Assembly (NCBI GenBank): GCA_030220185.1
Contig: JASPKZ010004202.1
Span: forward strand, 2,898,001-2,962,000
Direction: 5' to 3'
Length of the DNA stretch: 64,000 bases
Source: Diploptera punctata
Taxonomy: Eukaryota; Arthropoda; Insecta; Blattodea; Blaberidae
Below are positions 416 through 64,000 of the stretch, piece by piece (positions within the stretch are counted from its first letter, which is position 1; each line of letters starts with the position of its first letter). The translations under genes and the position numbers were made by a program. The notes beneath the pieces were generated by a model that had not been told where the DNA came from, did no database searches, and saw only the letters and a list, made by a program, of their open reading frames with translations.

Positions 416-479
416 ATAACAAACTAACTTATACACCTCACTGATAATATTCTTTTAACAATTAATACATTTAATTATT

Positions 480-855
480 TGCCTCTGGTCCCGAGGGTCG
501 CGGGTTCAAACCCGGCCGGGGTCGATGGATTTTTAGGACGGAAAATCCAAGGGGCAAGTCCTCCGGGAGGGTCTTTAAGCTGTGGGTCCCGAGTCTGAAG
601 ATTTTCAGGCTCGTAAAAAATCCTTAAGCCTGAAGGAAAGGCCTCTAAGCAAAATTACCGAATTTTCCCGTCCTAGTACTACCTTGGTTTCCTAGATGTC
701 AGTATGAGGCGGAACGCTGAGCACGGTCCACTCAAAAATGACATCTATACGAAAACAAGTGTAACTAAATTAGTATGGTTCAATTTCTTCCCTGTAGGGG
801 GAGAGCGCCCAAATTTCTGTAAAGGGAAAACATGGGCTTACAAAAAAATGAAAAT
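480..855 (+). mobile_element. tRNA-derived SINE (S1), copy 1
   Basis: A Pol III B-box-like GGTTCAAACCC lies at about 510, inside a tRNA-like half whose A-box side is missing. A body follows and ends in a module at 773-843 (GTATGGTTC ... GGGCTTACAA). A near-identical copy lies on the other strand at 47797-48145, so this is a dispersed repeat. The 773-843 module is also about 71 bp of every unit of the satellite at 52679-64000. SINE status is inferred from the B-box and dispersal. Confidence 0.7.
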
Positions 856-1196
856 AATATTAAGAATAACAAATATTTTCATTTGTTTTGTTTTAAATAT
901 TGTATAATCGTAAAATTAGTTTTCTATATCTCATTATTTTCCTTTGTTTTCTTATCTACATTAGACAGGGACATTTTATTATTAGTTTTAGTCTTAATTT
1001 TAACTAACATTAACTGGTTGTATTATAGATCGTAATATATTAGATATTATCTTTTTGATCAAATTTTTACTTAGTATTTAATATTAGAGTTTATATTCTG
1101 ATGTAATATATGTTTGTCCTGGTGAGTGGAAGAGAAAGCCACATGGTCTTAACTCCACCAGGCTAAATAAGTCTAAATCTAAATCTAAAATCTATA
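856..1196 (+). mobile_element. LINE 3' UTR with terminal stem-loop and TCTAAA-type tail
   Basis: The stretch is AT-rich and non-coding. It ends at 1117-1162 in a stem-loop bounded by CTGG and CCAGG with an inner segment AGCCACATGGTC, followed by TAAGTCTAAATCTAAATCTAAA. The same closing structure precedes short tandem tails at 15373-15417 and 30180-30224, and in reverse at 36280-36325. It is therefore the 3' end of a CR1/L2-like LINE. Short reading frames at 704-1035 look accidental. Confidence 0.5.
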
Positions 1197-8693: not shown

Positions 8694-9545
8694 TTTGAAT
8701 GAATGAATGGAATTTATTGCCTTTTTTTCAAAAGAAAGCAGATTTTATATACAGAATTTTAATGTTTACACATCTTTCTGTGCCTAAACTTTTATTTTTC
8801 TTCTCCACTCGTCTCTCTCCATCCAATCCATGTCCTCCAGTCCACTTGCTCTCATTCCAGTTCTTATTTCATGCATCCACGAGTTTCGAGGTCTTCCTCT
8901 CCTCCTTCTTCCAGGTGGACACCATTCCAATGTTTTCCTGGGTAATCTTTCTTCTTGCATTCGTCGTACGTGCCCATACCAATTTAATTGCTTATACCGT
9001 ATATAATCTACTATTGAATAATCAGTATTCATTTATTCTCTTATGACAATATTTCTTATTTTGTCTAATTTTGAACATCTTGCTGCTCTCCGCAAGAAAT
9101 CCATTTCCATCGACATAAGTTTTTGTTGAATTTCCAAACTTCAGCTCCATATGTGACAGTACTTCTCACCATTGAATTATATATTTGTAACTTATTTTTC
9201 CTGGTTATATGTCTGTTCCATAAGACTCCATTCATCATTGCTGTTATTGCTCTACCTTTATTTATTCTGTTCTTGATATCACTTTCTTGTTTATCCTCTT
9301 TATCTAATTTTACTCCCAGATGCTCAAATTCTTCACATCCTCTAATATACCCCTTTTCATCTTCTAATATCAAATCTTCGGTTTCGGCTCCACATCCCAC
9401 ATAAAATGTTTTTTCTAAATTTATTTTCAAACCCCAGTTATCTTATTCGTCCAATAATTTTCTGAACATAAACTCCATGTCTTCATATGCTGGTCATCCG
9501 CAAATAACAGTGTATATATTATATCTGTTGATCCATCTCGAATGA
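8694..9545 (-). mobile_element. LINE-E fragment with frameshifts
   Basis: On the minus strand: LLFADDQ near 9500 (catalytic box), KINLEKTFYVGCGAE, EEFEHLGVKLDKED, YNSMVRSTVTYGAEVW, then in another frame YIRYKQLNWYGHVRRMQEERLPRKTLEW and RRRRGRPRNSWM. At least two frameshifts break the ORF. The 3' end has a CATTCATTCATTC-type tail at 8694-8712. Confidence 0.8.
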
Positions 9546-28461: not shown

Positions 28462-29070
28462 TGAAAATATTTCACGCTAGTTTAAGTGCAGTTTTTCCAT
28501 GAAAATATTTCACGCTAGTTTAAGTGCAGTTTTTCCATGAAAATATTTCACGCTAGTTTAAGTGCAATTTTTCCATGAAATATTTCACGCTAGTTTAAGT
28601 GCAGTTTTTCCATGAAAATATTTCACGCTAGTTTAAGTGCAGTTTTTCCATGAAAATATTTCACGCTAGTTTAAGTGCAGTTTTTCCATGAAAATATTTC
28701 ACGCTAGTTTAAGTGCAGTTTTTCCATGAAAATATTTCACGCTAGTTTAAGTGCAGTTTTTCCATGAAAATATTTCACGCTAGTTTAAGTGCAGTTTTTC
28801 CATGAAAATATTTCACGCTAGTTTAAGTGCAGTTTTTCCATGAAATATATTTCACGCTAGTTTAAGTGCAGTTTTTTCCATGAAAATATTTCACGCTAGT
28901 TTAAGTGCAGTTTTTCCATGAAAATATTTCACGCTAGTTTAAGTGCAGTTTTTCTATGAAAATATTTCACGCTAGTTTAAGTGCAGTTTTTCCATGAAAA
29001 TATTTCACGCTAGTTTAAGTGCAGTTTTTCCATGAAAATATTTCACGCTAGTTTAAGTGCAGTTTTTCCA
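28462..29070. repeat. 38-bp minisatellite, 16 copies
   Basis: The unit starts TGAAAATATTTCACGCTAG and ends GTGCAGTTTTTCCA. 609 bp equals 16 units, with only three single-base indels and a couple of substitutions. No unique spacers between copies. Confidence 0.98.
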
Positions 29071-32204: not shown

Positions 32205-33060
32205 TAAATAATAGTTTTAAAATACTAAAACAGCACGCCTTATTACAAAACCGAACTCAAAAATGAAAAATATTTATTATTTTATTTTTTAGTTTTAATA
32301 TTTTACAGAATAAGATAAGAATGTAAATATCTTTAAATTCCATAGGCCTACTATTGTAGTATGAGCTCAAAGTATTACTCTTCTAAAAAAACTCCTCCCA
32401 GCCGGATTCGAACCAGCGACCTATGTATTACTGAAATTATATACCACTAGTTCAGCGCTCTACCAACTGAGCTCTTACAACGATTGACTAAAAAGTCGAC
32501 AAGTCCGTAGCCTATTATACCAGTTTTATTTTTTTTTTTTGATTTTCTGATGATTCTGGCCAGGAATTTAGAAATAAAATATGAAATTATTGTAGTGTCA
32601 CGGGTCCTTTACAAGTATACAAAGTTTCAAGTCGATCCAATGTCTCTAAGTGGGTGAAAATCGTGTTCAAAGATTCCGTTACATAAATACAAAGACACTT
32701 TTTTTGATTTCTTATGATTCTGGCCAGGATTTTAGAAAATGAATATGAAATTATTGTATTGGCACGATTCCTTTACAAGTATACAAAGTTTCAAGTCTAT
32801 CCTATGTTTCTAAGTGGGTGAAAATCGTGTTCAAAGATTCCGTTACAAAAATACAAAGACACTTTTTTTGATTTTCTGATGATTCTGGCCAGGATTTTAG
32901 AAAATAAATATGAAATTATTGTATTGTCACGGGTCCTTTACAAGTATACAACATTTCAAGTCGATCCAATTATTTTAAGTGGGTGAAAAACGCGTTGAAA
33001 GATTCCGTTACATAGATAGATATATAGATAGATAGATACAGGTCAAGCTAATATAAAGCA
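32205..33060. mobile_element. Foldback element (N), copy 3, arm only
   Basis: It starts inside the arm (AATAAATAATAGTTTTAAAA), has a tRNA-Tyr-like segment at 32393-32490, three direct subrepeats beginning at about 32541, 32706 and 32870, a TAGA run and the same terminus CAAGCTAATATAAAGC. The palindrome centre is deleted. Subrepeat number differs from copies 1 and 2. Confidence 0.7.
32393..32490 (-). pseudogene. tRNA-Tyr-like segment, best-preserved B box
   Basis: The minus strand has GAGCTCAGTTGGTAGAGCGC, GGTATATAATTTCAGTA as the intron-like part, and GGTTCGAATCCGGC as a perfect T arm. The anticodon region has decayed to CTA. Part of the foldback arm. Confidence 0.6.
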
Positions 33061-35534: not shown

Positions 35535-35975
35535 TTGCAGCAAATGAGCGATATGCAGCTGAGACTTGGGCATTTACAAAGAAGGACTTGAGCAGAATCC
35601 AAGCTACAGAAATTAAATGTTTATGTGGAATGACACTTAAAACAAGGAGAGATAGAATAAGGAATGAGAAAATCAGGGAGACGTTAAGTGTGCAAAAATT
35701 AACAACAGCCATAGAAAAAAGTAGACTAAAATGGTTTGGACATTTAAAAAGAATGGAAAAGGAAAGACTATCACAAATACTGTTAAAATCTCAAGATATA
35801 AGGAAAGCTACCATGAGGTAGACCACGAGAAAGATGGATTACCAAGTGAAGAAATGTCTACAAGAGAGAGGATACGACTAGGAAGAACTAAAAAGAAGCA
35901 AAGCATGGGAAGATACAGATGGTTGGAGGGATATTTCGAACCGATCTTCCGATAAGATGATGATGACTTCCAAAT
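35535..35975 (+). mobile_element. LINE-L fragment, ORF C-terminus
   Basis: YAAETWAFTKKDLSRIQATE, IKCLCGMTLKTRRDRIRNEK, then SRLKWFGHLKRMEKERLSQI. A stop at 35819 interrupts; a shifted frame continues. It ends with GATGATGATG. The RLKWFGHLKRME segment is the closest relative in this window of the coding-like part of the 252-bp satellite. Confidence 0.75.
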
Positions 35976-47643: not shown

Positions 47644-47796
47644 TTTGTTCTGTAGGCAATTTTTATGTTTTTATCATGTTTTTTGAGGATTTTTGTTACC
47701 TTTTGTGTTTCTGTGCCTGTGTATGTTAATGATACCCACAATTTCCCTATTTAATTGTGTTATATTTGTTAGTTCTTCTTTTTCTTTTGTTTCATG

Positions 47797-48145
47797 TTGT
47801 AAGCCCATGTTTTCCCTTTACAGAGATTTAGGCGCTCTCCCCCTACAGGGAAGAATTTGAACCATACTAATTTAGTTACACTTGTTTTCATATAGATGCC
47901 ATTTTTGAGTGGTCCGTGGTCAGCGTTCCACCTCATACTGACATCTAGGAAACCAAGGTAGTACTAGGACGAGAAAATTCGGTAAATTTTGCTTAGAGGC
48001 CTTTTCATTCAGGCTTAAGTATTTTTTACTCGGGATCCACGGCTTAAAGTCCCTCCCGGAGGACTTGCTCCTTGGATTTTTCCATCCTAAAAAAATCCAT
48101 CGACCCCGGCCGGGTTTGAACCCGCGACCCTCGGGACCAGAGACA
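47797..48145 (-). mobile_element. tRNA-derived SINE (S1), copy 2
   Basis: In reverse it runs from CTGGTCCCGAGGGTCGCGGG and B box GGTTCAAACCC to the module GTATGGTTCAAATTCTTCCC ... GGGCTTACAA (47797-47867). This module is closer to the satellite unit than copy 1 is (AAATTCTTCCC and GCGCCTAAAT shared with the satellite). Confidence 0.8.
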
Positions 48146-48179
48146 AAGAGCTTAACTTAATTTATTAATAATTCCTCCA

Positions 48180-48760
48180 TATTCTTCTTCTACTACAAGG
48201 TTTAGGCTATGCAGCCTGTTCCGGCGAAGTTAAAAGTGGAGTCCATCTTCTGCGTGGTCGGCCAACATCTCTTGTTCCTCTGGGATTATACAGGAAGGTT
48301 CTTTTTGGTATTCTTTCGTTGTTCATTCTCATTAAGTGTTCTGTCCATTTCTTATTATTTTCGCTGATTTTATCTTCAATTTTATATATATTTAATTCTT
48401 CTCGTATAGTTTCATTCCTTATTCTATCCGCTCTTGTGCATCCTTTCACATTACGTAACAACAGCATTTCCGCAGTCTGTATCCTGCTTTTATCCCTTGA
48501 TTTCATTATCCAATTTTCACTTCCATACAACAACAAAGGAACAGCCATTGTTTTATATAATTTAAGTTTCGTATCTTTCCTTGTTTTCCGACCTAAGGTT
48601 CTTTTTATGGTTCCACAAATAGCCTGAAATTTATTTACTTTATTTTCTATATCTTTATTTTCTCTATAAGTTATATCACATCCTAAATATTGGAAATGTG
48701 ATACTAATTCCTTCATTATACCCATTTTTATAAACCACACGTTTTATAATTTAATTACTT
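48180..48760 (-). mobile_element. LINE-D fragment 3
   Basis: The minus frame has HFQYLGCDITYRENKDIENK, CGTIKRTLGRKTRKDTKL, MAVPLLLYGSENWIMKSRD, AEMLLLRNVKGCTRADRIRN, NNKKWTEHLMRMNNERIPKR and GTRDVGRPRRRW; the end is altered to TPLLTSPEQAA by a frameshift. Tail weak (GAAGAAGAATATG). Confidence 0.85.
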
Positions 48761-50640: not shown

Positions 50641-51199
50641 GAAGACACTATAATAATGTTAGATAATAATAATTAAAAATATATATAATTGTATTCGTGC
50701 CTAGACACTAAAAATATCGTAAGCAATTAATTTTTCATGGGATTCTGGTTTATGACAATCAATTAAACTAAAAATTAAATAAATAAATAATAGTTTAAAA
50801 AACTAAAACAACACGCTTTATTAGAAAACCTAACTAAAAAATAAAAAAATAATTTTAATTTCCAATACGCTTGGGATAAAATTAAAGTGGTCAACAAAAA
50901 ATCATCTCCAACACATCTAGAATAAAACTAGAGTTATCTACAAAAAAAATAATTTTACCATCAAAAGCGTGGGGTGCTTTTTATGGTTTTTGCGTTTTCT
51001 TCTTAGAGACTTTACTTTTACCAATATATGTTTATTATCAAATATATTAATTGATAAAGAGTACCCCACGCTTTTGATGGTAAAATTCTTTTTTTAGATA
51101 ACTCTAGTTTTATTCTAGATGTGTTGGAGATGATTTTTTTGTTGACCACTTTAATTTTATCCCAAGCGTGTTGGAAATTAAAATTATTTTTCATTTTTT

Positions 51200-51513
51200 A
51201 GTTCGGTTTTCTAATAAAGCGTGTTGTTTTAGTTTTTTAAACTATTATTTATTTTTTATTTTTTATTTCGGTTTTCTAATAAAGCGTGTTGTTTTAGTTT
51301 TTTAAACTATTATTTATTTTTTATTTTTTATTTCGGTTTTCTAATAAAGCGTGTTGTTTTAGTTTTTTAAACTATTATTTATTTTTTATTTTTTATTTCG
51401 GTTTTCTAATAAAGCGTGTTGTTTTAGTTTTTTAAACTATTATTTATTTTTTATTTTTTATTTCGGTTTTCTAATAAAGCGTGTTGTTTTAGTTTTTTAA
51501 ACTATTATGTATT
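51200..51513. repeat. 65-bp tandem repeat inside the foldback right arm, five copies
   Basis: TTCGGTTTTCTAATAAAGCG recurs with an exact 65-bp step (C of CGG at 51204, 51269, 51334, 51399, 51464). The left arm has one such unit, so the right arm expanded after the element formed. Confidence 0.95.
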
Positions 51514-51589
51514 ATTTTAATTATTAGCTTAATTGATTGTCATAAACCGGAATCCCATGAAAATTTGATTGCATAATCCTCTTCTAAAA

Positions 51590-51917: not shown

Positions 51918-52405
51918 AAAAGTTTAAATTACATAATTTGTATATTTTCATGTAAGGCATAAACCTTTTATTGAAAAGGAATTATTAGGTAAGTGTGGAC
52001 AAGTCATACATATGGATTTCTCTTGTTTTGTAAATTTGAAGATACCGTTATATACACAGTGCGATAGAACTATTTGATTGCAATACCCTGGATATAAGCT
52101 CTTTTGTAAATTATCAGTGAGCCACATGAATGAATACGGCTGAATGGTCCGGGAATCGATTCCAGACAGCAGCTGTGTTCGCGTATTTTAATCCATACCA
52201 ATATGGGCTCATGCAATCTGCCAGTCAGTATCAGCGCTCTTCTTATTGAAGCCATACAATGGATCAAATTGTATTATAATGCACTCACATTGCTCTTTGC
52301 TTGTCAAATAATTAGTCAAATGGAGTCAAAGTATTCTTTTGGTGAAAGCGTCTTTTTATTATGTTGGTAACGTTAACAACATTGGTCTGAAATCTGGACG
52401 TAAGT
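51918..52405. other. Unassigned sequence
   Basis: Nothing recognised. CCGGGAATCGATTCC near 52150 is palindromic and B-box-like, but without a partner box. Confidence 0.35.
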
Positions 52406-52652
52406 AACAAGCTGTCAGCAGTAGAACAAGCTGTCAGCAGTAGAACAAGCTGTCAGCAGTAGAACAAGCTGTCAGCAGTAGAACAAGCTGTCAGCAGTAG
52501 AACAAGCTGTCAGCAGTAGAACAAGCTGTCAGCAGTAGAACAAGCTGTCAGCAGTAGAACAAGCTGTCAGCAGTAGAACAAGCTGTCAGCAGTAGAACAA
52601 GCTGTCAGCAGTAGAACAAGCTGTCAGCAGTAGAACAAGCTGTCAGCAGTAG
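52406..52652. repeat. 19-bp minisatellite, 13 perfect copies
   Basis: The unit is AACAAGCTGTCAGCAGTAG. 247 bp equals exactly 13 units and I see no variant. It ends 26 bp before the 252-bp satellite starts. Confidence 0.98.
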
Positions 52653-52678
52653 AAATGGATTTTTGGAGGCGATCGACA

Positions 52679-55600
52679 TGAATTTAAAGAATGGATAAAG
52701 TCAGAAACAGCACAATAAAATAAATTCTGCAAGTTGAAAAAGGAAGCTTGTAAAAAAAATAGTTGTATGGTTCAAATTCTTCCCTGTAGGGGGAGAGCGC
52801 CTAAATATCTGTTAAGGTAAACCATGGGCTTACAAGAAGAATAAAAACAAAATAGAAGATAGAACGTTTGAAATGGTATGGATACCTCATAAGAATGGAA
52901 GAAGATAGAATACCAAAGAAGATCCTTGATTGAATTTAAAGAATGGATAAAGTCAGAAACAGCACAATAAAATAAATTCTGCAAGTTGAAAAAGGAAGCT
53001 TGTAAAAAAAATAGTTGTATGGTTCAAATTCTTCCCTGTAGGGGGAGAGCGCCTAAATATCTGTTAAGGTAAACCATGGGCTTACAAGAAGAATAAAAAC
53101 AAAATAGAAGATAGAACGTTTGAAATGGTATGGATACCTCATAAGAATGGAAGAAGATAGAATACCAAAGAAGATCCTTGATTGAATTTAAAGAATGGAT
53201 AAAGTCAGAAACAGCACAATAAAATAAATTCTGCAAGTTGAAAAAAGGAAGCTTGTAAAAAAAAAGTTGTATGGTTCAAATTCTTCCCTGTAGGGGGAGA
53301 GCGCCTAAATATCTGTTAAGGTAAACCATGGGCTTACAAGAAGAATAGAAACAAAATAGAAGATAGAACGTTTGAAATGGTATGGATACCTCATAAGAAT
53401 GGAAGAAGATAGAATACCAAAGAAGATCCTTGATTGAATTTAAAGAATGGATAAAGTCAGAAACAGCACAATAAAATAAATTCTGCAAGTTGAAAAAGGA
53501 AGCTTGTAAAAAAAATAGTTGTATGGTTCAAATTCTTCCCTGTAGGGGAGAGCGCCTAAATATCTGTTAAGGTAAACCATGGGCTTACAAGAAGAATAGA
53601 AACAAAATAGAAGATAGAACGTTTGAAATGGTATGGATACCTCATAAGAATGGAAGAAGATAGAATACCAAAAGAAGATCCTTGATTGAATTTAAAGAAT
53701 GGATAAAGTCAGAAACAGCACAATAAAATAAATTCTGCAAGTTGAAAAAGGAAGCTTGTAAAAAAAATAGTTGTATGGTTCAAATTCTTCCCTGTAGGGG
53801 GAGAGCGCCTAAATATCTGTTAAGGTAAACCATGGGCTTACAAGAAGAATACAAACAAAATAGAAGATAGAACGTTTGAAATGGTATGGATACCTCATAA
53901 GAATGGAAGAAGATAGAATACCAAAGAAGATCCTTGATTGAATTTAAAGAATGGATAAAGTCAGAAACAGCACAATAAAATAAATTCTGCAAGTTGAAAA
54001 AGGAAGCTTGTAAAAAAAATAGTTGTATGGTTCAAATTCTTCCCTGTAGGGGGAGAGCGCCTAAATATCTGTTAAGGTAAACCATGGGCTTACAAGAAGA
54101 ATAGAAACAAAATAGAAGATAGAACGTTTGAAATGGTATGGATACCTCATAAGAATGGAAGAAGATAGAATACCCAAAGAAGATCCTTGATTGAATTTAA
54201 AGAATGGATAAAGTCAGAAACAGCACAATAAAATAAATTCTGCAAGTGAAAAGGAAGCTTGTAAAAAAAAATAGTTGTATGGTTCAAATTCTTCCCTGTA
54301 GGGGGAGAGCGCCTAAATATCTGTTAAGGTAAACCATGGGCTTACAAGAAGAATAGAAACAAAATAGAAGATAGAACGTTTGAAATGGTATGGATACCTC
54401 ATAAGAATGGAAGAAGATAGAATACCAAAGAAGATCCTTGATTGAATTTAAAGAATGGATAAAGTCAGAAACAGCACAATAAAATAAATTCTGCAAGTTG
54501 AAAAAGGAGCTTGTAAAAAAAATAGTTGTATGGTTCAAATTCTTCCCTGTAGGGGGAGAGCGCCTAAATATCTGTTAAGGTAAACCATGGGCTTACAAGA
54601 AGAATAGAAACAAAATAGAAGATAGAACGTTTGAAATGGTATGGATACCTCATAAGAATGGAAGAAGATAGAATACCAAAGAAGATCCTTGATTGAATTT
54701 AAAGAATGGATAAAGTCAGAAACAGCACAATAAAATAAATTCTGCAAGTTGAAAAAGGAAGCTTGTAAAAAAAATAGTTGTATGGTTCAAATTCTTCCCT
54801 GTAGGGGGAGAGGCGCCTAAATATCTGTTAAGGTAAACCATGGGCTTACAAGAAGAATAGAAACAAAATAGAAGATAGAACGTTTGAAATGGTATGGATA
54901 CCTCATAAGAATGGAAGAAGATAGAATACCAAAGAAGATCCTTGATTGAATTTAAAGAATGGATAAAGTCAGAAACCAGCACAATAAAAATAAATTCTGC
55001 AAGTTGAAAAAGGAAGCTTGTAAAAAAAATAGTTGTATGGTTTCAAATTCTTCCTGTAGGGGGAGAGCGCCTAAATATCTGTTAAGGTAAACCATGGGCT
55101 TACAAGAAGAATAGAAACAAAAATAGAAGATAGAACGTTTGAAATGGTATGGATACCTCATAAGAATGGAAGAAGATAGAATACCAAAGAAGATCCTTGA
55201 TTGAATTTAAAGAATGGATAAAGTCAGAAACAGCACAATAAAATAAATTCTGCAAGTTGAAAAAGGAAGCTTGTAAAAAAAAATAGTTTGTATGGTTCAA
55301 ATTCTTCCCTGTAGGGGGGAGAGCGCCTAAATATCTGTTAAGGTAAACCATGGGCTTACAAGAAGAATAGAAACAAAATAGAAGATAGAACGTTTGAAAT
55401 GGTATGGATACCTCATAAGAATGGAAGAAGATAGAATACCAAAGAAGATCCTTGATTGAATTTAAAGAATGGATAAAGTCAGAAACAGCACAATAAAATA
55501 AATTCTGCAATTTGAAAAAAGGAAGCTTGTAAAAAAAATAGTTGTGCTGGTTCCCAATTCTCCCTGTCGGGGGGGAGCGCGCCTCCTCCATATCTGTTAA

Positions 55601-58600
55601 GGTAAACCCTGGGCTTACAAGAAGAATACAAAACAAAATAGAAGATAGAACGTTTGAAATGGTATGGACACCTCATAGAAGAATAAGATAGAGATAGAAT
55701 ACCAAAGAAGATCCTTGATTGAATTTAAAGAATGGATAAAAGTCAGAAACAGCACAATAAAATAAATTCTGCAAGTTGAAAAAGGAAGCTTTTAAAAAAA
55801 AATAGTTGTATGGTTCAAATTCTTCCCTGTAGGGGGGAGAGCGCCTAAAATATCTGTTAAGGTAAACCATGGGCTTACAAGAGAGAATAGAAACAAAATA
55901 GAAGATAGAACGTTTAAATGGTATGGATACCTCATAAGAATGGAAGAAGATAGAATACCACAGAAGATCCTTGATTGAATTTAAAGAATGGATAAAAGTC
56001 AGAAACAGCACCATAAAATAATTCTGAAAGTTGAAAAAGGAAGCTTGTAAAAAAAATAGTTGTATGGTTCAAATTCTTCCCTGTAGGGGAGGAGCGCCTC
56101 AAATATCTGTTAAGGTAAACCATGGGCTTACAAGAAGAATAAAAACAAAATAGAAGATAGAACGTTTGAAATGGTATGGATACCTCATAAGAATGGAAGA
56201 AGATAGAATACCAAAGAAGATCCTTGATTGAATTTAAAGAAGGTTGATAAAGTCAGAAACAGCACAATAAAATAAATTCTGCAAGTTGAAAAAAGGAAGC
56301 TTGTAAAAAAATAGTTGTATGGTTCCAATTCTTCCCTGTAGGGGGAGAGCGACTAAATATCGTTAAAGGTAAACCATGGGCTTACAAGAAGAATAGAAAC
56401 AAAATAGAAGATAGAACGTTTGAAATGGTATGGATACCTCATAAGAATGGAAGGAAGATAGAATACCAAAGATGATCCTTGATTGAATTTAAAGAATGGA
56501 TAAAGAGTCAGAAACAGCACAATAAAATAAATTCTGAAAGTTGAAAAAGGAAGCTTGTAAAAAAAATAGTTGTATGGTTCAAATTCTTCCCTGTAGGGGG
56601 AGAGCGCCTAAATATCTGGTTAAGGTAAACCATGGGCTTACAAGAAGAATAGAAACAATAGAAGATAGAACGTTTGAAATTGGTATGGACACCTCATAAG
56701 AAGGAAGGAAGATAGAATACCAAAGAAGATCCTTGATTGAATTTAAAGAATGGATAAATCAGAACAGCACAATTAAAATAAATTCTGCAAGTTGAAAAGG
56801 AAGCTTGTAAAAAAAATAGTTGTATGGTTCAATTTTCCCTGTAGGGGGGAGGCGCCTAAATATCTGTTAGGTAAACCATGGGCTTACAAGAAGAATAGAA
56901 ACACAATAGAAGATAGAACGTTTGAAATGTATGGATACCTCAGTAAGAATGGAAGAAGATAGAATACCAAAGAAGATCCTTGATTGACTTTAAAGAATGG
57001 ATAAAGTCAGAAACAGCACAATAAAATAATTATGAAAGTTGAAAAAAGAGCTTGTAAAAAAAATAGTGGTATGGTTCAAATTCTTCCTGTAGGGGGAGAG
57101 CGCAAAATATATGTTAAGGTAAACATGGCTTACAAGAAGAATAGAAACCAAATAGAAGATAGAACGTTTGAAATGGTATGGATCCTCATAAGAGTGGAAG
57201 AGATAGTACTATCAAAGAAGATCTTGATTGAATTTAAGGACTGGATTTAAGTCAGAAACAGCACAAGTTAAAATAAATTCTGAAAGTTGAAAAAGGAAGC
57301 TTGTCAAAAAAAAATAGTTGTATGGTTCAAATTCTCCTTGTATGGGGAGAGCGCCTAAATCTCTGTTAAGGTAACCATGGGCTTACAAGAGAATTGAAAC
57401 AAAATAGAAGATAGAACGTTTTGAAATGGTATGGGAACCTCATAAGAATGGAAGAAGATAGAATACCAAGAAGATCTTGATTGAATTTAAGAATGGTAAA
57501 GTCAGAAAACAGCACAATAAATAAATTCTGCAGTTTGAAAAGGAAGCTTGTAAAAAAAATAGTGTAGGTTCAATTCTCCGTAGGGGAGAGCGCCTAATAT
57601 CTGTTAGGTAAACATGGGCTTACAAGAAGAATAGAATACAAATGAAGATAGAACGTTGAATGGTATGGATCCTTCAAGAATGGAAGAAGATAGAATACCA
57701 AGAAGGTCCTTATTGAATTTAAAGAATGGTACGTCAGAAACACACTAAAATAAATTCTTAAAGTTTAAAAAGAAGCTTGTAAAAAAAATAGTTGATGTTC
57801 AAATCTTCCCTGTAGGGGGAGAGCCCTAAATATCTGTAAGGTAACCTTGGTTACAAGAGATAGAAACAAAATAGCAGATAGAACGTTTGAAATGGTAGAT
57901 ACCTCTAAGAATGGAAGAGATAGCATACCAAAGAAGATCCTTGATGATTTAAAGAAGGACGTCAGAAACAGCCAATAAATAATTCTGCAAGTTGAAAAGG
58001 AAGCTTTAAAAAAATAGTTGTATGGTTAAATCTTCCCTGTAGGGGGATAGCGCCTAAATTCTGTTAGGTAAACCATGGGCTTACAAGAGAATAGACACAA
58101 ATAGAAGATAGACGTTTGAAATGGTATGGATACCTCATAGATGGAAGAAGATAGAGCAAAGAAATCTTGATTGCATTTAAAGAAGGAATAATCAGAAACG
58201 CACATAAAATAAATTCTGGCAAGTTGAAAAGGAAGCTTGCTTAAAAAAAAATGTTGTATGCGTTCAAATCTTCCCTTGTAGGGGGAGAGCGCCTAATATC
58301 TGTTAAGGTAAACCATGGGCTTACAAGAAGAAAGAAACAAAATAGAAGATAGAACGTTGGAAATGGTATGGACACCTACTTAAGAATGGAAGAAGATAGA
58401 TACCAAAGAAGATCCTGTTGAATTTAAAGAATGGCTAAAGTCAGAAACAGCACCAATAAAAGAAATTCTGCAAGTTGAAAAAGGAAGTGTAAAAAAAATA
58501 GTGTTGGTTCAAATTCTTCCCTGTAGGGGGAGCGCCCTAAATATCTGTTAAGGTAAAACATGGGCTTCAAAGAAGAAATAGAAAAAAATGAGATAGAACG

Positions 58601-61600
58601 TTTGAAATGGTATGGATACCTCATAACGAATGGAAGAAGATAGAATACAAAGAAGATCCTTGATGAATTGAAAGAATGGAAAAGTCAGAAAACAGGCACA
58701 ATAAAATAAATTCTGCAAGTGAAAAAGGAAGCTTGTAAAAAAATAGTGATGGTTTCAAATTCTTCCTGTAGGGGGAGAGCGCCTAAATATCTGTAAGGTA
58801 AACCATGGGCTTACCAGAGAATCGAAACAAAATAGAAGATAGAACGTGAAATGGTGATACCTCATAAGAATGGAAGAAGATAGAATACCAAGAGGATCCT
58901 TGATTGAATTTAAAAGAATGGATAAAGTCAGAACAGCACAATAAAATAAATTTGAAGTTGAAAAAGGAAGCTTGTAAAAAAAAAGTTGTATGGTTCCCAT
59001 TCTTTCCCTGTAGGGGGAGAGCGCCTAAATATCTGTTAAGGTAAACCATGGGCTTACAAGAGAATAGAAAACAAAATAGAAGATGAACGTTTGAATGGTA
59101 TGGATACCTCATAAGAATGGAAGAAGATAGAATACCAAAGAAGATCCTGATTGAATTAAAGAATGGATAAAGTCAGAAACAGCACAATAAATAAATTCTG
59201 CAAGTGAAAAAGGAAGTTGTAAAAAAAATAGTTGTATGGTTCAAATTTTTCCTGTAGGGGGAGAGCGCCCCTAAATCTCTGTACGGGTAAACCAGGCTTA
59301 CAAACAGAATAGAAACAAATAGAAGATAGAGATCGTTGAATGGAAATGGTATGGATACCTCTAAGAAGAAGAAGATAGGTACCAAGAAGATCTGCTTGAT
59401 TAGTTAAGAATGGTAAAAGCAGAAAACAGCACATAAAATAATTCTGCAAGTTGAAAAGGAGCTTGTAAAAAAAATAGTTGTATGGTTCAATTCTTCCTGT
59501 AGGGGAGAGCGCTAAATTATTGGTAGTAAACCATGGGTTTAAGAAGAATAGAAAAAAATAGAAGATAGACGTTGAACTGGTATGGAACCTCATAAGAAGG
59601 AGAAAGATAGATACCAAAGAGATCTTGTTGAATTTAAAGAATGGAAAAGTCAGAAAGCACATAAATTAAATTTGCAAGTGAAAAGGAAGCTTGACAAAAA
59701 AAATAGTGTATGTTCAAATTCTTCCTGTGAGTGGTGAGCGCCTAAATATCTGTTAAGGTAATCCATGGGTCTTACAAGAAGAATAGAAACAAAATAGCGA
59801 GTAGAACGTTTGAAATGGTATGGATACCCTCATAAGAATGGAAGAAGATAGAATACCAAAGAAGATCCTTGATTGATTTAAAGAATGTATAAAGTCAGAA
59901 ACGCACAAATAAAATCACTTCTGCAAGTTTGAAAAAGGAAGCTTGTAAAAAAAATAGTTGTATGGTTCAAATTCTTCCCTGTAGGGGGAGAGCGCCTAAA
60001 TATCTGTTAAGGTAAACCATGGGCTTACAAGAAGAATAGAAACAAAATAGAAGATAGAACGTGTTGAAATGGTATGGACACCCTCATAAGAATGGAAGAA
60101 GATAGAATACCAAAGGAAGCTCCTTGATTGAATTTAAAGAATGGATAAGTCAGAAACAGCACAATAAAAAATAAATTCTGCCAAGTTGAAAAAGGAAGCT
60201 TGTAAAAAAAATAGTTGTATGGTCAAATTCTTCCCTGTAGGGGGGAGAGAGCCTAAATATCTGTTAAGGTAAACCATGGGCTTACAAGAAGAAATAAAAA
60301 CAAAATAGAGATAGAACGTTTGAAATGGTATGGAACCTCATAAGAATGGAAGAAGATAGAATACCAAAGAAGATCCTTGATTGAATTTAAAGAATGGATA
60401 AAGTCAGAAACAGCACAATAAAATAAATTCTGCAAGTTGAAAAAGGAAGCTTGTAAAAAAATAGTTGTATGGTTCAATTCTTCCCTGTAGGGGGAGAGCG
60501 CCCTAAATATCTGTTAAGGTAAACCATGGGCTTACAAGAAGAATAAAACAAAATAGAAGATAGAACGTTTGAAATGGTATGGATACCTCATAAGAATGGA
60601 AGAAGATAGAATACCAAAGCAGATCCTTGATTGAATTTAAAGAATGGATAAAGTCAGAAACAGCACAATAAAATAAATTCTGCAAGTTGAAAAAGGAAGC
60701 TTGTAAAAATAGGTTGTATGGTTCAAATTCTTCCCTGTAGGGGAGAGAGCGCCTAAATATCTGTTAAGGTAAACCATGGGCTTACAAGAAGAATAAAAAC
60801 AAAATAGAAGATAGAACGTTTGAAATGGTATGGATACCTCAATAAGAATGGAAAGAGATAGAATACCAAAGAAGATCCTTGATTGAATTTAAAGAATGGA
60901 TAAAGTCAGAAACAGCACAATAAAATAAATTCTGCAAGTTGAAAAAGGAAGCTTGTAAAAAAAATAGTTGTATGGTTCAAATTCTTCCCTGTAGGGGGAG
61001 GAGCGCCTAAATATCTGTTAAGGTAAACCATGGGCTTACAAGAAGAATACAAACAAAATAGAAGATAGAACGTTTGAAATGGTATGGATACCTCATAAGA
61101 ATGGAAGAGATAGAATACCAAAGAAGATCCTTGATTGAATTTAAAGAATGGATAAAGTCAGAAAACAGCACAATAAAATAAATTCTGCAAGTTGAAAAAG
61201 GAAGCTTGTAAAAAAAATAGTTGTATGGTTCAAATTTCTTCCCTGTAGGGGGAGAGCGCCTAAATATCTGTTAAGGTAAACCATGGGCTTACAAGAAGAA
61301 TACAAACAAAATAGAAGATAGAACGTTTGAAATGGTATGGATACCTCATAAGATGGAAGAAGATAGAATACCAAAGAAGATCCTTGATTGAATTTAAAGA
61401 ATGGATAAAGTCAGAAACAGCACAATAAAATAAATTCTGCAAGTTGAAAAAGGAAGCTTGTAAAAAAAATAGTTTGTATGGTTCAAATTCTTCCCTGTAG
61501 GGGAGAGCGCCTAAATATCTGTTAAGGTAAACCATGGGCTTACAAGAAGAATACAAACAAAATAGAAGATAGAACGTTTGAAATGGTATGGACACCTCAT

Positions 61601-64000
61601 AAGAATGGAAGAAGATAGAATACCAAAGAAGATCCTTGATTGAATTTAAAGAATGGATAAAGTCAGAAACAGCACAATAAAATAAATTCTGCAAGTTGAA
61701 AAAGGAAGCTTGTAAAAAAAATAGTTGTATGGTTCAAATTCTTCCCTGTAGGGGGGAGCGCCTAAATATCTGTTAAGGTAAACCATGGGCTTACAAGAAG
61801 AATAGAAACAAAATAGAAGATAGAACGTTTGAAATGGTATGGATACCTCATAAGAATGGAAGAAGATAGAATACCAAGAAGATCCTTGATTGAATTTAAA
61901 GAATGGATAAAGTCAGAAACATCACAATAAAAATAAATTCTCTGTCAAGTTGAAAAAGGAAGCTTGTAAAAAAAATAGTTTTATGTGTCAAATTCTTCCC
62001 TGTAGGGGGAGAGCGCCTAAATATCTGTTAGGGTAAACCATGGGCTTACAAGAAGAATATAAACATACATAGAAAGATAGAACGACTGTTTTCACTGGTA
62101 TGGATACCTCGAAAGAAGGGAAGAAGATAGAATACCAAAGAAGCTCCTTGATTGAATTTAAAGAATGGATAAAGTCATAAACAGCACAATAAAATAAATT
62201 CTGCAAGTTGAACAAGGAAGCTTGTAAAAAAAAATAGTGGAATGGTTCAAATTCTCTTCCCTGTATTGGGTAGATCTCCTAAATATCTGTTTTAATCTTA
62301 ACCATGGGCTTACAAGAAGAATAGAAACAAAATAGAAGATAGAACGTTTGAAATGGTATGGATACCTCATAAGAATGGAAGAAGATAGAATACCAAAGAA
62401 GATCCTTGATTGAATTTAAAGAATGGATAAAGTCAGAAACAGCACAATAAAATAAATCTGCAAGTTGAAAAAGGAAGCTTGTGAAAAAAAATAGTTGTAT
62501 GGTTCAAATTCTTCCCTGTAGGGGGAGAGCGCCTAAATATCTGTTAAGGTAAACCATGGGCTTACAAGAAGAATAGAAACAAAATAGAAGATAGAACGTT
62601 TGAAATGGTATGGATACCTCATAAGAATGGAAGAAGATAGAATACCAAAGAAGATCCTTGATTGAATTTAAAGAATGGATAAAGTCAGAAACAGCACAAT
62701 AAAATAAATTCTGAAAGTTGAAAAAGGAAGCTTGTAAAAAAAATAGTTGTATGGTTCAAATTCTTCCCTGTAGGGGGAGAGCGCCTAAATATCTGTTAAG
62801 GTAAACCATGGGCTTACAAGAAGAATACAAACAAAATAGAAGATAAACGTTTGAAATGGTATGGATACCTCATAAGAATGGAAGAAGATAGAATACCAAA
62901 GAAGATCCTTGATTGAATTTAAAGAATGGATAAAGTCAGAAACAGCACAATAAAATAAATTCTGCAAGTGGAAAAAGGAAGCTTGTTAAAAAAAATAGTT
63001 GTATGGTTCAAATTCTTCCCTGTAGGGGGAGAGCGCCTAAATATCTGTTAAGGTAAACCATGGGCTTACAAGAAGAATAGAAACAAAATAGAAGATAGAA
63101 CGTTTGAAATGGTATGGATACCTCATAAGAATGGAAGAAGATAGAATACCAAAGAAGATCCTTGATTGAATTTAAAGAATGGATAAAGTCAGAAACAGCA
63201 CAATAAAATAAATTCTGCAAGTTGAAAAAGGAAGCTTGTAAAAAAAATAGTTGTATGGTTCAAATTCTTCCCTGTAGGGGGGAGAGCGCCTAAATATCTG
63301 TTAAGGTAAACCATGGGCTTACAAGAAGAATAGAAACAAAATAGAAGATAGAACGTTTGAAATGGTATGGATACCTCATAAGAATGGAAGAAGATAGAAT
63401 ACCAAAGAAGATCCTTGATTGAATTTAAAGAATGGATAAAGTCAGAAACAGCACAATAAAATAAATTCTGAAAGTTGAAAAAGGAAGCTTGTAAAAAAAA
63501 TAGTTGTATGGTTCAAATTCTTCCCTGTAGGGGGAGAGCGCCTAAATATCTGTTAAGGTAAACCATGGGCTTACAAGAAGAATAGAAACAAAATAGAAGA
63601 TAGAACGTTTGAAATGGTATGGATACCTCATAAGAATGGAAGAAGATAGAATACCAAAGAAGATCCTTGATTGAATTTAAAGAATGGATAAAGTCAGAAA
63701 CAGCACAATAAAATAAATTCTGCAAGTTGAAAAAGGAAGCTTGTAAAAAAAATAGTTGTATGGTTCAAATTCTTCCCTGTAGGGGGAGAGCGCCTAAATA
63801 TCTGTTAAGGTAAACCATGGGCTTACAAGAAGAATAGAAACAAAATAGAAGATAGAACGTTTGAAATGGTATGGATACCTCATAAGAATGGAAGAAGATA
63901 GAATACCAAAGAAGATCCTTGATTGAATTTAAAGAATGGATAAAGTCAGAAACAGCACAATAAAATAAATTCTGCAAGTTGAGAAAGGAAGCTTGTAAAA
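52679..64000. repeat. 252-bp satellite array, about 45 copies, continuing past the window
   Basis: The first unit is partial (from 52679). Markers GTAGGGGGAGAGCGCC recur about every 252 bp, 45 times. In unit 1, 52765-52835 matches the 3' module of SINE S1, and 52856-52930 reads RLKWYGYLIRMEEDRIPKKI on the plus strand, the C-terminal signature of LINE ORFs, before a stop. The remaining 100 bp contain ATTTAAAGAATGGATAAAGT and AAAAAGGAAGCTTGT. Copies at 52.7-55.5 and 59.9-64 kb are almost identical; those between are full of single-base indels. A 70-codon minus-strand frame in each unit is a by-product. Confidence 0.97.

Follow-up and report, generated by a model that had tools for sequence, protein, structure and literature searches.

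A composite LINE-SINE-LINE tandem array in Diploptera punctata that very probably expanded where it stands, within its parent element

The 64,000-nucleotide stretch of Diploptera punctata DNA analysed here, referred to as the window, corresponds to G000:C4112:2898001-2962000 in a 3.12-Gb assembly, where contig C4112 measures 4.1 Mb. From position 52679 onwards it holds a tandem array with a 252-bp unit, composed of parts of a long interspersed nuclear element (LINE) and of a short interspersed nuclear element (SINE) that we call S1. We consider it very probable that this is a newborn composite tandem array, grown in place inside its parent element. A sequence-only reading of the window had already proposed a SINE-LINE chimera that was amplified in tandem, and our alignments bear this out. 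The same reading held that the SINE had inserted beside, or been mobilised with, a LINE end; the alignments point instead to a truncated S1 inside the LINE open reading frame (ORF) and to a stretch of one LINE copy multiplied where it stood.

A tandem array at a single locus

Tandem Repeats Finder reports one array of period 252 that starts at 52679 and reaches the window end (in-window part 52679..64000, forward strand), which confirms the tandem array of more than 11 kb described before. Comparison with the continuation of the contig places the array end at position 65435 in window numbering (locus L020 1001-2435 on G000:C4112), which brings the total to 51 units. Relative to a 25-unit consensus, the 11 units at the start of the array and the 12 at its end show 98-100% identity, and in units between these clean edges identity goes down to 86.6%. 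The 51 units thus form a long head-to-tail array of a homogeneous unit, with uncertainty in the middle of the array. A genome-wide satellite would also be expected at many arrays or loci. The junction between the end of one unit and the start of the next gave 38 matches in the 3.12-Gb assembly at a tolerance of 2 mismatches, a limit that junctions diverged further would escape, and 38/38 lie inside the array at 52679-65435. Within the reach of this search there is no spread of the unit, and the 252-bp array is a single-locus array rather than a genome-wide satellite. As every junction match comes from one locus, "satellite", the term used in the sequence-only reading, is too strong.

The unit is a LINE stretch interrupted by a truncated SINE

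About 172 bp of the unit derive from one stretch of LINE ORF and flank the SINE piece on both sides; the initial description had recognised the SINE piece with LINE sequence downstream and had missed the LINE part upstream. In the first unit (all parts on the forward strand), LINE part a occupies 52679..52762 (unit positions 1-84; positions 1-63 are 49/58 to 56/63 identical to five dispersed LINE copies), the S1 piece with its GAA tail lies at 52765..52842 (unit 87 to about 164), and LINE part b, which reads RLKWYGYLIRMEEDRIPKKILD, at 52843..52930 (unit about 165-252; positions 170-252 match the five copies at 77-79/82). Each of the three parts reaches more than half of a perfect local score in 51/51 units, and the LINE pieces contain stops. 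When the dispersed LINE copies are aligned to the locus, unit positions 1-84 and about 165-252 form a continuous piece of the LINE ORF, and at the S1 site the unit is 93-107 bases longer than these copies, an excess made up of the S1 module and a duplication.

The SINE piece itself is a 5'-truncated S1 of about 78 bp including the GAA tail, in an A-rich site and on the same strand as the LINE. It is bordered by TTGTAAAAAAAATAG and TAGAAACAAAATAG, for which the LINE copy L012 has the single counterpart TTAGAAAAAATAG. This imperfect duplication would fit target-primed insertion, a reading that the A-rich sequence weakens.

S1 is a dispersed element built like a SINE

The reported match of about 71 bp between the unit and the 3' module of S1 holds up well. 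Unit positions 87-175/181 align to 773-860 on the forward strand with 87.6% identity and 108 bits, and to 47867-47774 on the minus strand with 89.5% identity and 123 bits; when the unit was put through 200 dinucleotide shuffles, the best hits did not exceed 33.7 bits. One dispersed element of about 380-420 bp, S1, has its 3' end at each of these two sites, and the two copies lie within 441..870 (S1a, forward strand; the matches of most other copies start at about 479) and 47761..48180 (S1b, minus strand). Directly 5' of S1b, and on the same strand, lies a LINE fragment of another family (48743-47774, minus strand, for the two together).

For copies outside the window, 39 of 2575 candidates were scored, ranked by their likeness to the unit; 29 were matches to the S1 module and 10 to the LINE side. 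The search skips very common words, and the array itself is absent from its listing. At 29/29 scored S1 places the match continues into S1 sequence beyond the module, from near the 5' end at 22 and only from further in at 7. In all 29 cases the module is followed by GAAGA and then by unlike flanks, except for L060 and L064, whose common flanks reduce the number of independent places to 28. The GAA tail is lacking in both in-window copies and present at all of these likeness-ranked places. None of the 29 carries the LINE parts, for which the best scores were only 27/126 and 31/164. Since the scored places match S1 past the module, have unlike flanks and lack the LINE parts, S1 is best taken as a dispersed element of SINE build, with dispersed copies, common ends, 5' truncation and a simple tail, of which the unit holds a strongly 5'-truncated copy. 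The same observations support the earlier view that S1 is an ancestor of the array and not derived from it.

The sole scored hit that spans unit positions 78-195, L003, was considered as a possible dispersed chimera and rejected, as its match to S1 starts no earlier than about position 263 and it has the GAA tail and contains no LINE sequence. In the head of S1 we noticed by eye the Box-B-like GGTTCAAACCC. Neither Rfam at its gathering threshold nor ARAGORN called a tRNA in the S1 head, and a 23-base S1 core gave 0 matches in IMG/VR.

The parent LINE family retains empty sites

All 10 scored candidates on the LINE side match unit positions 155-252 or most of this range, and five of them also match, directly preceding, unit position 2 to 63-84. 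These 10 loci hold 11 copies of one LINE family, and they are located on other contigs. Read across several copies, the end of the family's ORF is ...KLLAVEMDFWRRSTRISRRDKVRNSTIREIMQVEKK..EKIEEKRLKWYGYLIRMEEDRIPKKILDWKANGRSGRGRPRERW...LWRQITLG-stop. Importantly, the S1 insert is absent from 8/8 copies in which LINE sequence extends to either side of the site (L009a, L009b and L010-L015); L016, L017 and L018 show no clear extension to the left of it. A FAEDQVV stretch was seen by eye upstream in L015, and a Pfam search with one C-terminal ORF piece of the family (from L013) gave no hit.

Because the SINE is present in 51/51 units and absent from the eight site-covering copies, the nested insertion preceded tandemisation. 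The unit thereby combines pieces of at least two transposable elements (TEs) with nesting before amplification, the two features given for composite TE-derived monomers in a 2025 review (PMC12628747).

These empty sites also bear on the possibility that a LINE-SINE chimera had spread as a mobile retroposon and that one copy of it was amplified later. The common strand of the SINE and LINE parts would suit such a chimera, as would the LINE fragment of another family adjoining S1b. Against it stand, within the scored sample, the missing SINE in every LINE copy that covers the site and the low LINE scores at every S1 place, and in the whole assembly the restriction of the unit end-start junction to one locus, bearing in mind that the junction searched was that between units and not that between SINE and LINE. 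We therefore regard a mobile chimera as highly improbable.

The sequence-only reading had further stated that both ancestors are still present in the window and that the LINE ancestor is the element at 35535-35975. This is correct as far as the dispersed S1 copies are concerned, whereas the copies of the parent LINE family lie on other contigs. The signature said to be common to the unit and 35535-35975 is detectable at the protein level (30.0 bits, the best of 300 shuffles reaching 23.1) and not in the DNA, where the match to 35729-35773 scored 32.8 bits with shuffles up to 33.7; this LINE was rejected as the parent. A fragment at 8787-9032 (minus strand) gave a protein match of 33.9 bits, above that of 35535-35975, and the motif recurs in further LINE fragments of the window. 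The LINEs at 35535-35975 and 8787-9032 are members of other families with a common C-terminal motif, the former being only a distant relative.

The array lies within one LINE copy

On the left, the 24 bases directly before the array (52655..52678, forward strand) are LINE ORF that precedes unit position 1 in dispersed copies, and over its final 45 bases the left flank is 41/45 identical to L011. Further out, a remnant of the parent copy at 52383..52405 (forward strand; GGTCTGAAATCTGGAC-GTAAGT) aligns to L011, L013, L014 and L015. In whole-region alignments of the left flank, compared with 50 shuffles each, L014 scored clearly above the shuffles, L011 and L015 slightly above and L013 not; with 1/4 clearly above, we make no claim of LINE homology left of 52383.

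On the right, the LINE resumes from 65436 at the very base that follows unit position 252, and continues through the ORF end to the 3' end. Over 170 bp this flank has 144, 144, 142 and 139 identities to L011, L012, L014 and L015, respectively, and 121/167 to L013, while the dispersed copies compared with each other over the same stretch have 127/168 to 150/171. The rest of the parent LINE is thus found on both sides of the 252-bp array, as in arrays internal to a retroposon. Since the left flank is upstream ORF and the right flank is the ORF end plus the 3' end, the array is placed within one LINE copy, and the flank alignments make growth in place inside that copy the most likely course.

The position of the SINE piece also decides against a reading in which the unit is simply a LINE 3' end that has its tail in common with a SINE, as in a partner pair of LINE and SINE, without any nested insertion. 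In favour of this reading, SINE 3' regions are typically derived from a partner LINE (PMC10702118). The module, however, is internal to the ORF, which ends about 229 bp further on (88 bp in the unit plus 141 in the flank), and the LINE has its own ORF end and 3' end, of different sequence, in the right flank. The partner-tail reading is already contradicted by these facts and is extremely unlikely.

The edges of the array fall at the LINE breakpoints without extra duplication of LINE sequence, and the two breakpoints have at most two bases, TG, in common. The lack of extra LINE duplication speaks against an array formed elsewhere, or as extrachromosomal circles, that entered the LINE by homology. 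Formation and reinsertion of circles have been described for Bari1 (PMC9659126), yet no other locus with the unit junction was found at up to 2 mismatches, and we give this route very little credence relative to growth in place.

Between the left remnant and the last ORF stretch lies a 19-bp minisatellite (52406..52654, forward strand; 13.1 copies, 100% matches); its 19-bp stretch is present just once in those dispersed LINE copies that extend this far. It represents a second, separate tandem growth within the array's own LINE copy, 24 bp from the 252-bp array.

Age and order of events

The unit has diverged from the dispersed LINE copies about as far as these have diverged from each other. 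For unit positions 170-252 the values are 77-79/82 against 75-79/82 among copies, and for positions 1-63 they are 49/58 and 52/63 to 56/63, where the copies compared with each other give 51/62 to 54/58. Together with the stops, this indicates that the LINE was already old when the array grew. At the same time, the first 11 and last 9 units jointly show 6 substitutions and 19 indel positions relative to the consensus. With edge units nearly identical and the unit as diverged as the LINE copies, growth of the array is far younger than insertion of the LINE.

This shared decay also bears on whether the array could have been made during retrotransposition, by slippage or jumping of the reverse transcriptase, and not by later DNA exchange. 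Two tandem arrays in one LINE copy would favour such an origin. However, the units have old decay in common (stops, and about 4 to 17% divergence from other copies) and those at the edges hardly differ from each other, and for these reasons we consider production during reverse transcription very unlikely.

The alignments show an order of LINE first, S1 next and array last, all at one place. A LINE copy inserted and decayed, after which the last approximately 78 bp of an S1 inserted into an A-rich stretch of its ORF, on the same strand and with an imperfect short duplication; these two steps, like growth in place, follow from the alignments. The enzymatic route of the later steps is inferred. 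A 252-bp LINE piece including the SINE would have been duplicated between breakpoints with no more than 2 bp in common, possibly through microhomology or slippage, and may then have expanded to approximately 51 near-identical units as the 252-bp homology allowed unequal exchange or slippage during replication. A separate event gave rise to the 19-bp array nearby.

Several observations weigh against this picture of a newborn array grown in place. The 2-bp microhomology is weak, and the site duplication around S1, being imperfect and in A-rich sequence, could be partly due to chance. The LINE and S1 comparisons are samples, resting on the scored candidates from a listing that lacks the array itself. 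Finally, mid-array units at about 55457-60381 and 61891-62410 contain many indels, many of them private to one unit, which leaves the true copy number and homogeneity uncertain. These indels are most simply explained by poor polishing of a long-read assembly; since an unpolished long-read assembly would be expected to be poor in mid-array and clean at the edges, next to other sequence, we did not take the mid-array differences as a sign of age, and the number of units is therefore approximate. Taken further, the error-rich middle between clean edges might suggest that the array was invented or badly mis-sized by the assembler. Clean edge units on both sides, sequence variants such as G/A/C at unit position 166 and LINE flanks at either end all speak for a real array, the size of which may still be wrong, and an assembly artefact of this kind is in our judgement most improbable.

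A second array in the same LINE family

Of note, the array at 52679-65435 has a counterpart. At C5:264900-267700 (L018 1-2501 plus the end of L023), approximately 14 units of 200 bp cover an overlapping stretch of the parent LINE ORF, without S1. This array too is flanked by its own LINE, which continues as a short piece beyond one edge and as the 3' end beyond the other. The bases common to its breakpoints are TGAA, or TTGAA under the commoner LINE reading. Two in-place arrays in one LINE family suggest a habit of that family and do not prove it, the LINE loci, including that on C5, having been ranked by similarity and not sampled at random. Tentatively, the family might be a recurrent satellite nursery, in which the 3' ORF is repeatedly tandemised in place and units become composite through nested SINEs. 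The locus described here would then preserve the first stage in the birth of a satellite, its parent, empty sites and breakpoints being still readable. We regard this wider idea as possible, though more doubtful than not.

Comparison with known systems

Tandem arrays from LINE and SINE parts are already known (Table 1 of PMC9659126). The LINE-derived satellites listed in that table include PROsat and Pvc20 (both L1 ORF2) and chicken HinfI (CR1 3'UTR plus ORF2), which, like the present array, use LINE ORF sequence as the tandem unit and for which the table gives no SINE insert. The SINE-derived satellites of squamates (sSats) are likewise tandem repeats of part of a retroposon, and according to PMC10702118 most of them keep a longer terminal unit that extends to the SINE end. 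In these, however, the element is a SINE, the unit derives from one family and most snakes have thousands of loci, although one lizard has a distinct single sSat locus of more than 1200 units. Here, in contrast, the host is a LINE, the SINE is nested in a unit with LINE flanks on both sides, and this unit has one locus.

The origin of composite monomers is treated as an open question in the 2025 review, where nested insertion plus tandemisation is proposed (PMC12628747). The "TE graveyards" of composite satellite DNA (satDNA) described there resemble our case in having monomers of more than one TE and in the sequence of nested insertion followed by tandemisation; they are a hypothesis for monomers of debated origin, formed from shuffled remnants in heterochromatin. 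In our case, by comparison, one can still read the insertion, the empty sites and both flanks, and spread past one locus was not seen. In those parts of the literature that were consulted, PMC6947457 and PMC9191728 among them, we met no description of a SINE-in-LINE monomer that has remained within its parent copy. The locus is thus a clear example of the nested-insertion-plus-tandemisation scheme at a single place. It displays the parent LINE, the nested SINE, the breakpoints and the array side by side, and the LINE family has a second array that lies in place. The order of events can be tested across individuals and sister species, and the array offers a starting point for measuring the growth rate of new arrays.

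Other repeats nearby

Further tandem repeats occur in and near the window. At 51184-51526, a 65-bp unit is present in 5.3 copies inside another dispersed repeat, and matching stretches in L012 look single; this is perhaps further tandem growth in place. At 32534-33018 and in L021 (6701-7186), copies of one dispersed repeat that is also matched in L012 contain approximately three units of 164/165 bp in succession, and these units may be carried by the dispersed element itself. A 38-bp array at 28462-29070 (16 copies, 98% matches) had no match at E 1e-8 among the loci compared. Approximately 21 kb past the 252-bp array, in L022 3433-10000 (G000:C4112 ~2984433-2991000), AACCC/CTAACC-like blocks alternate with AAGGACCTT-like repeats.

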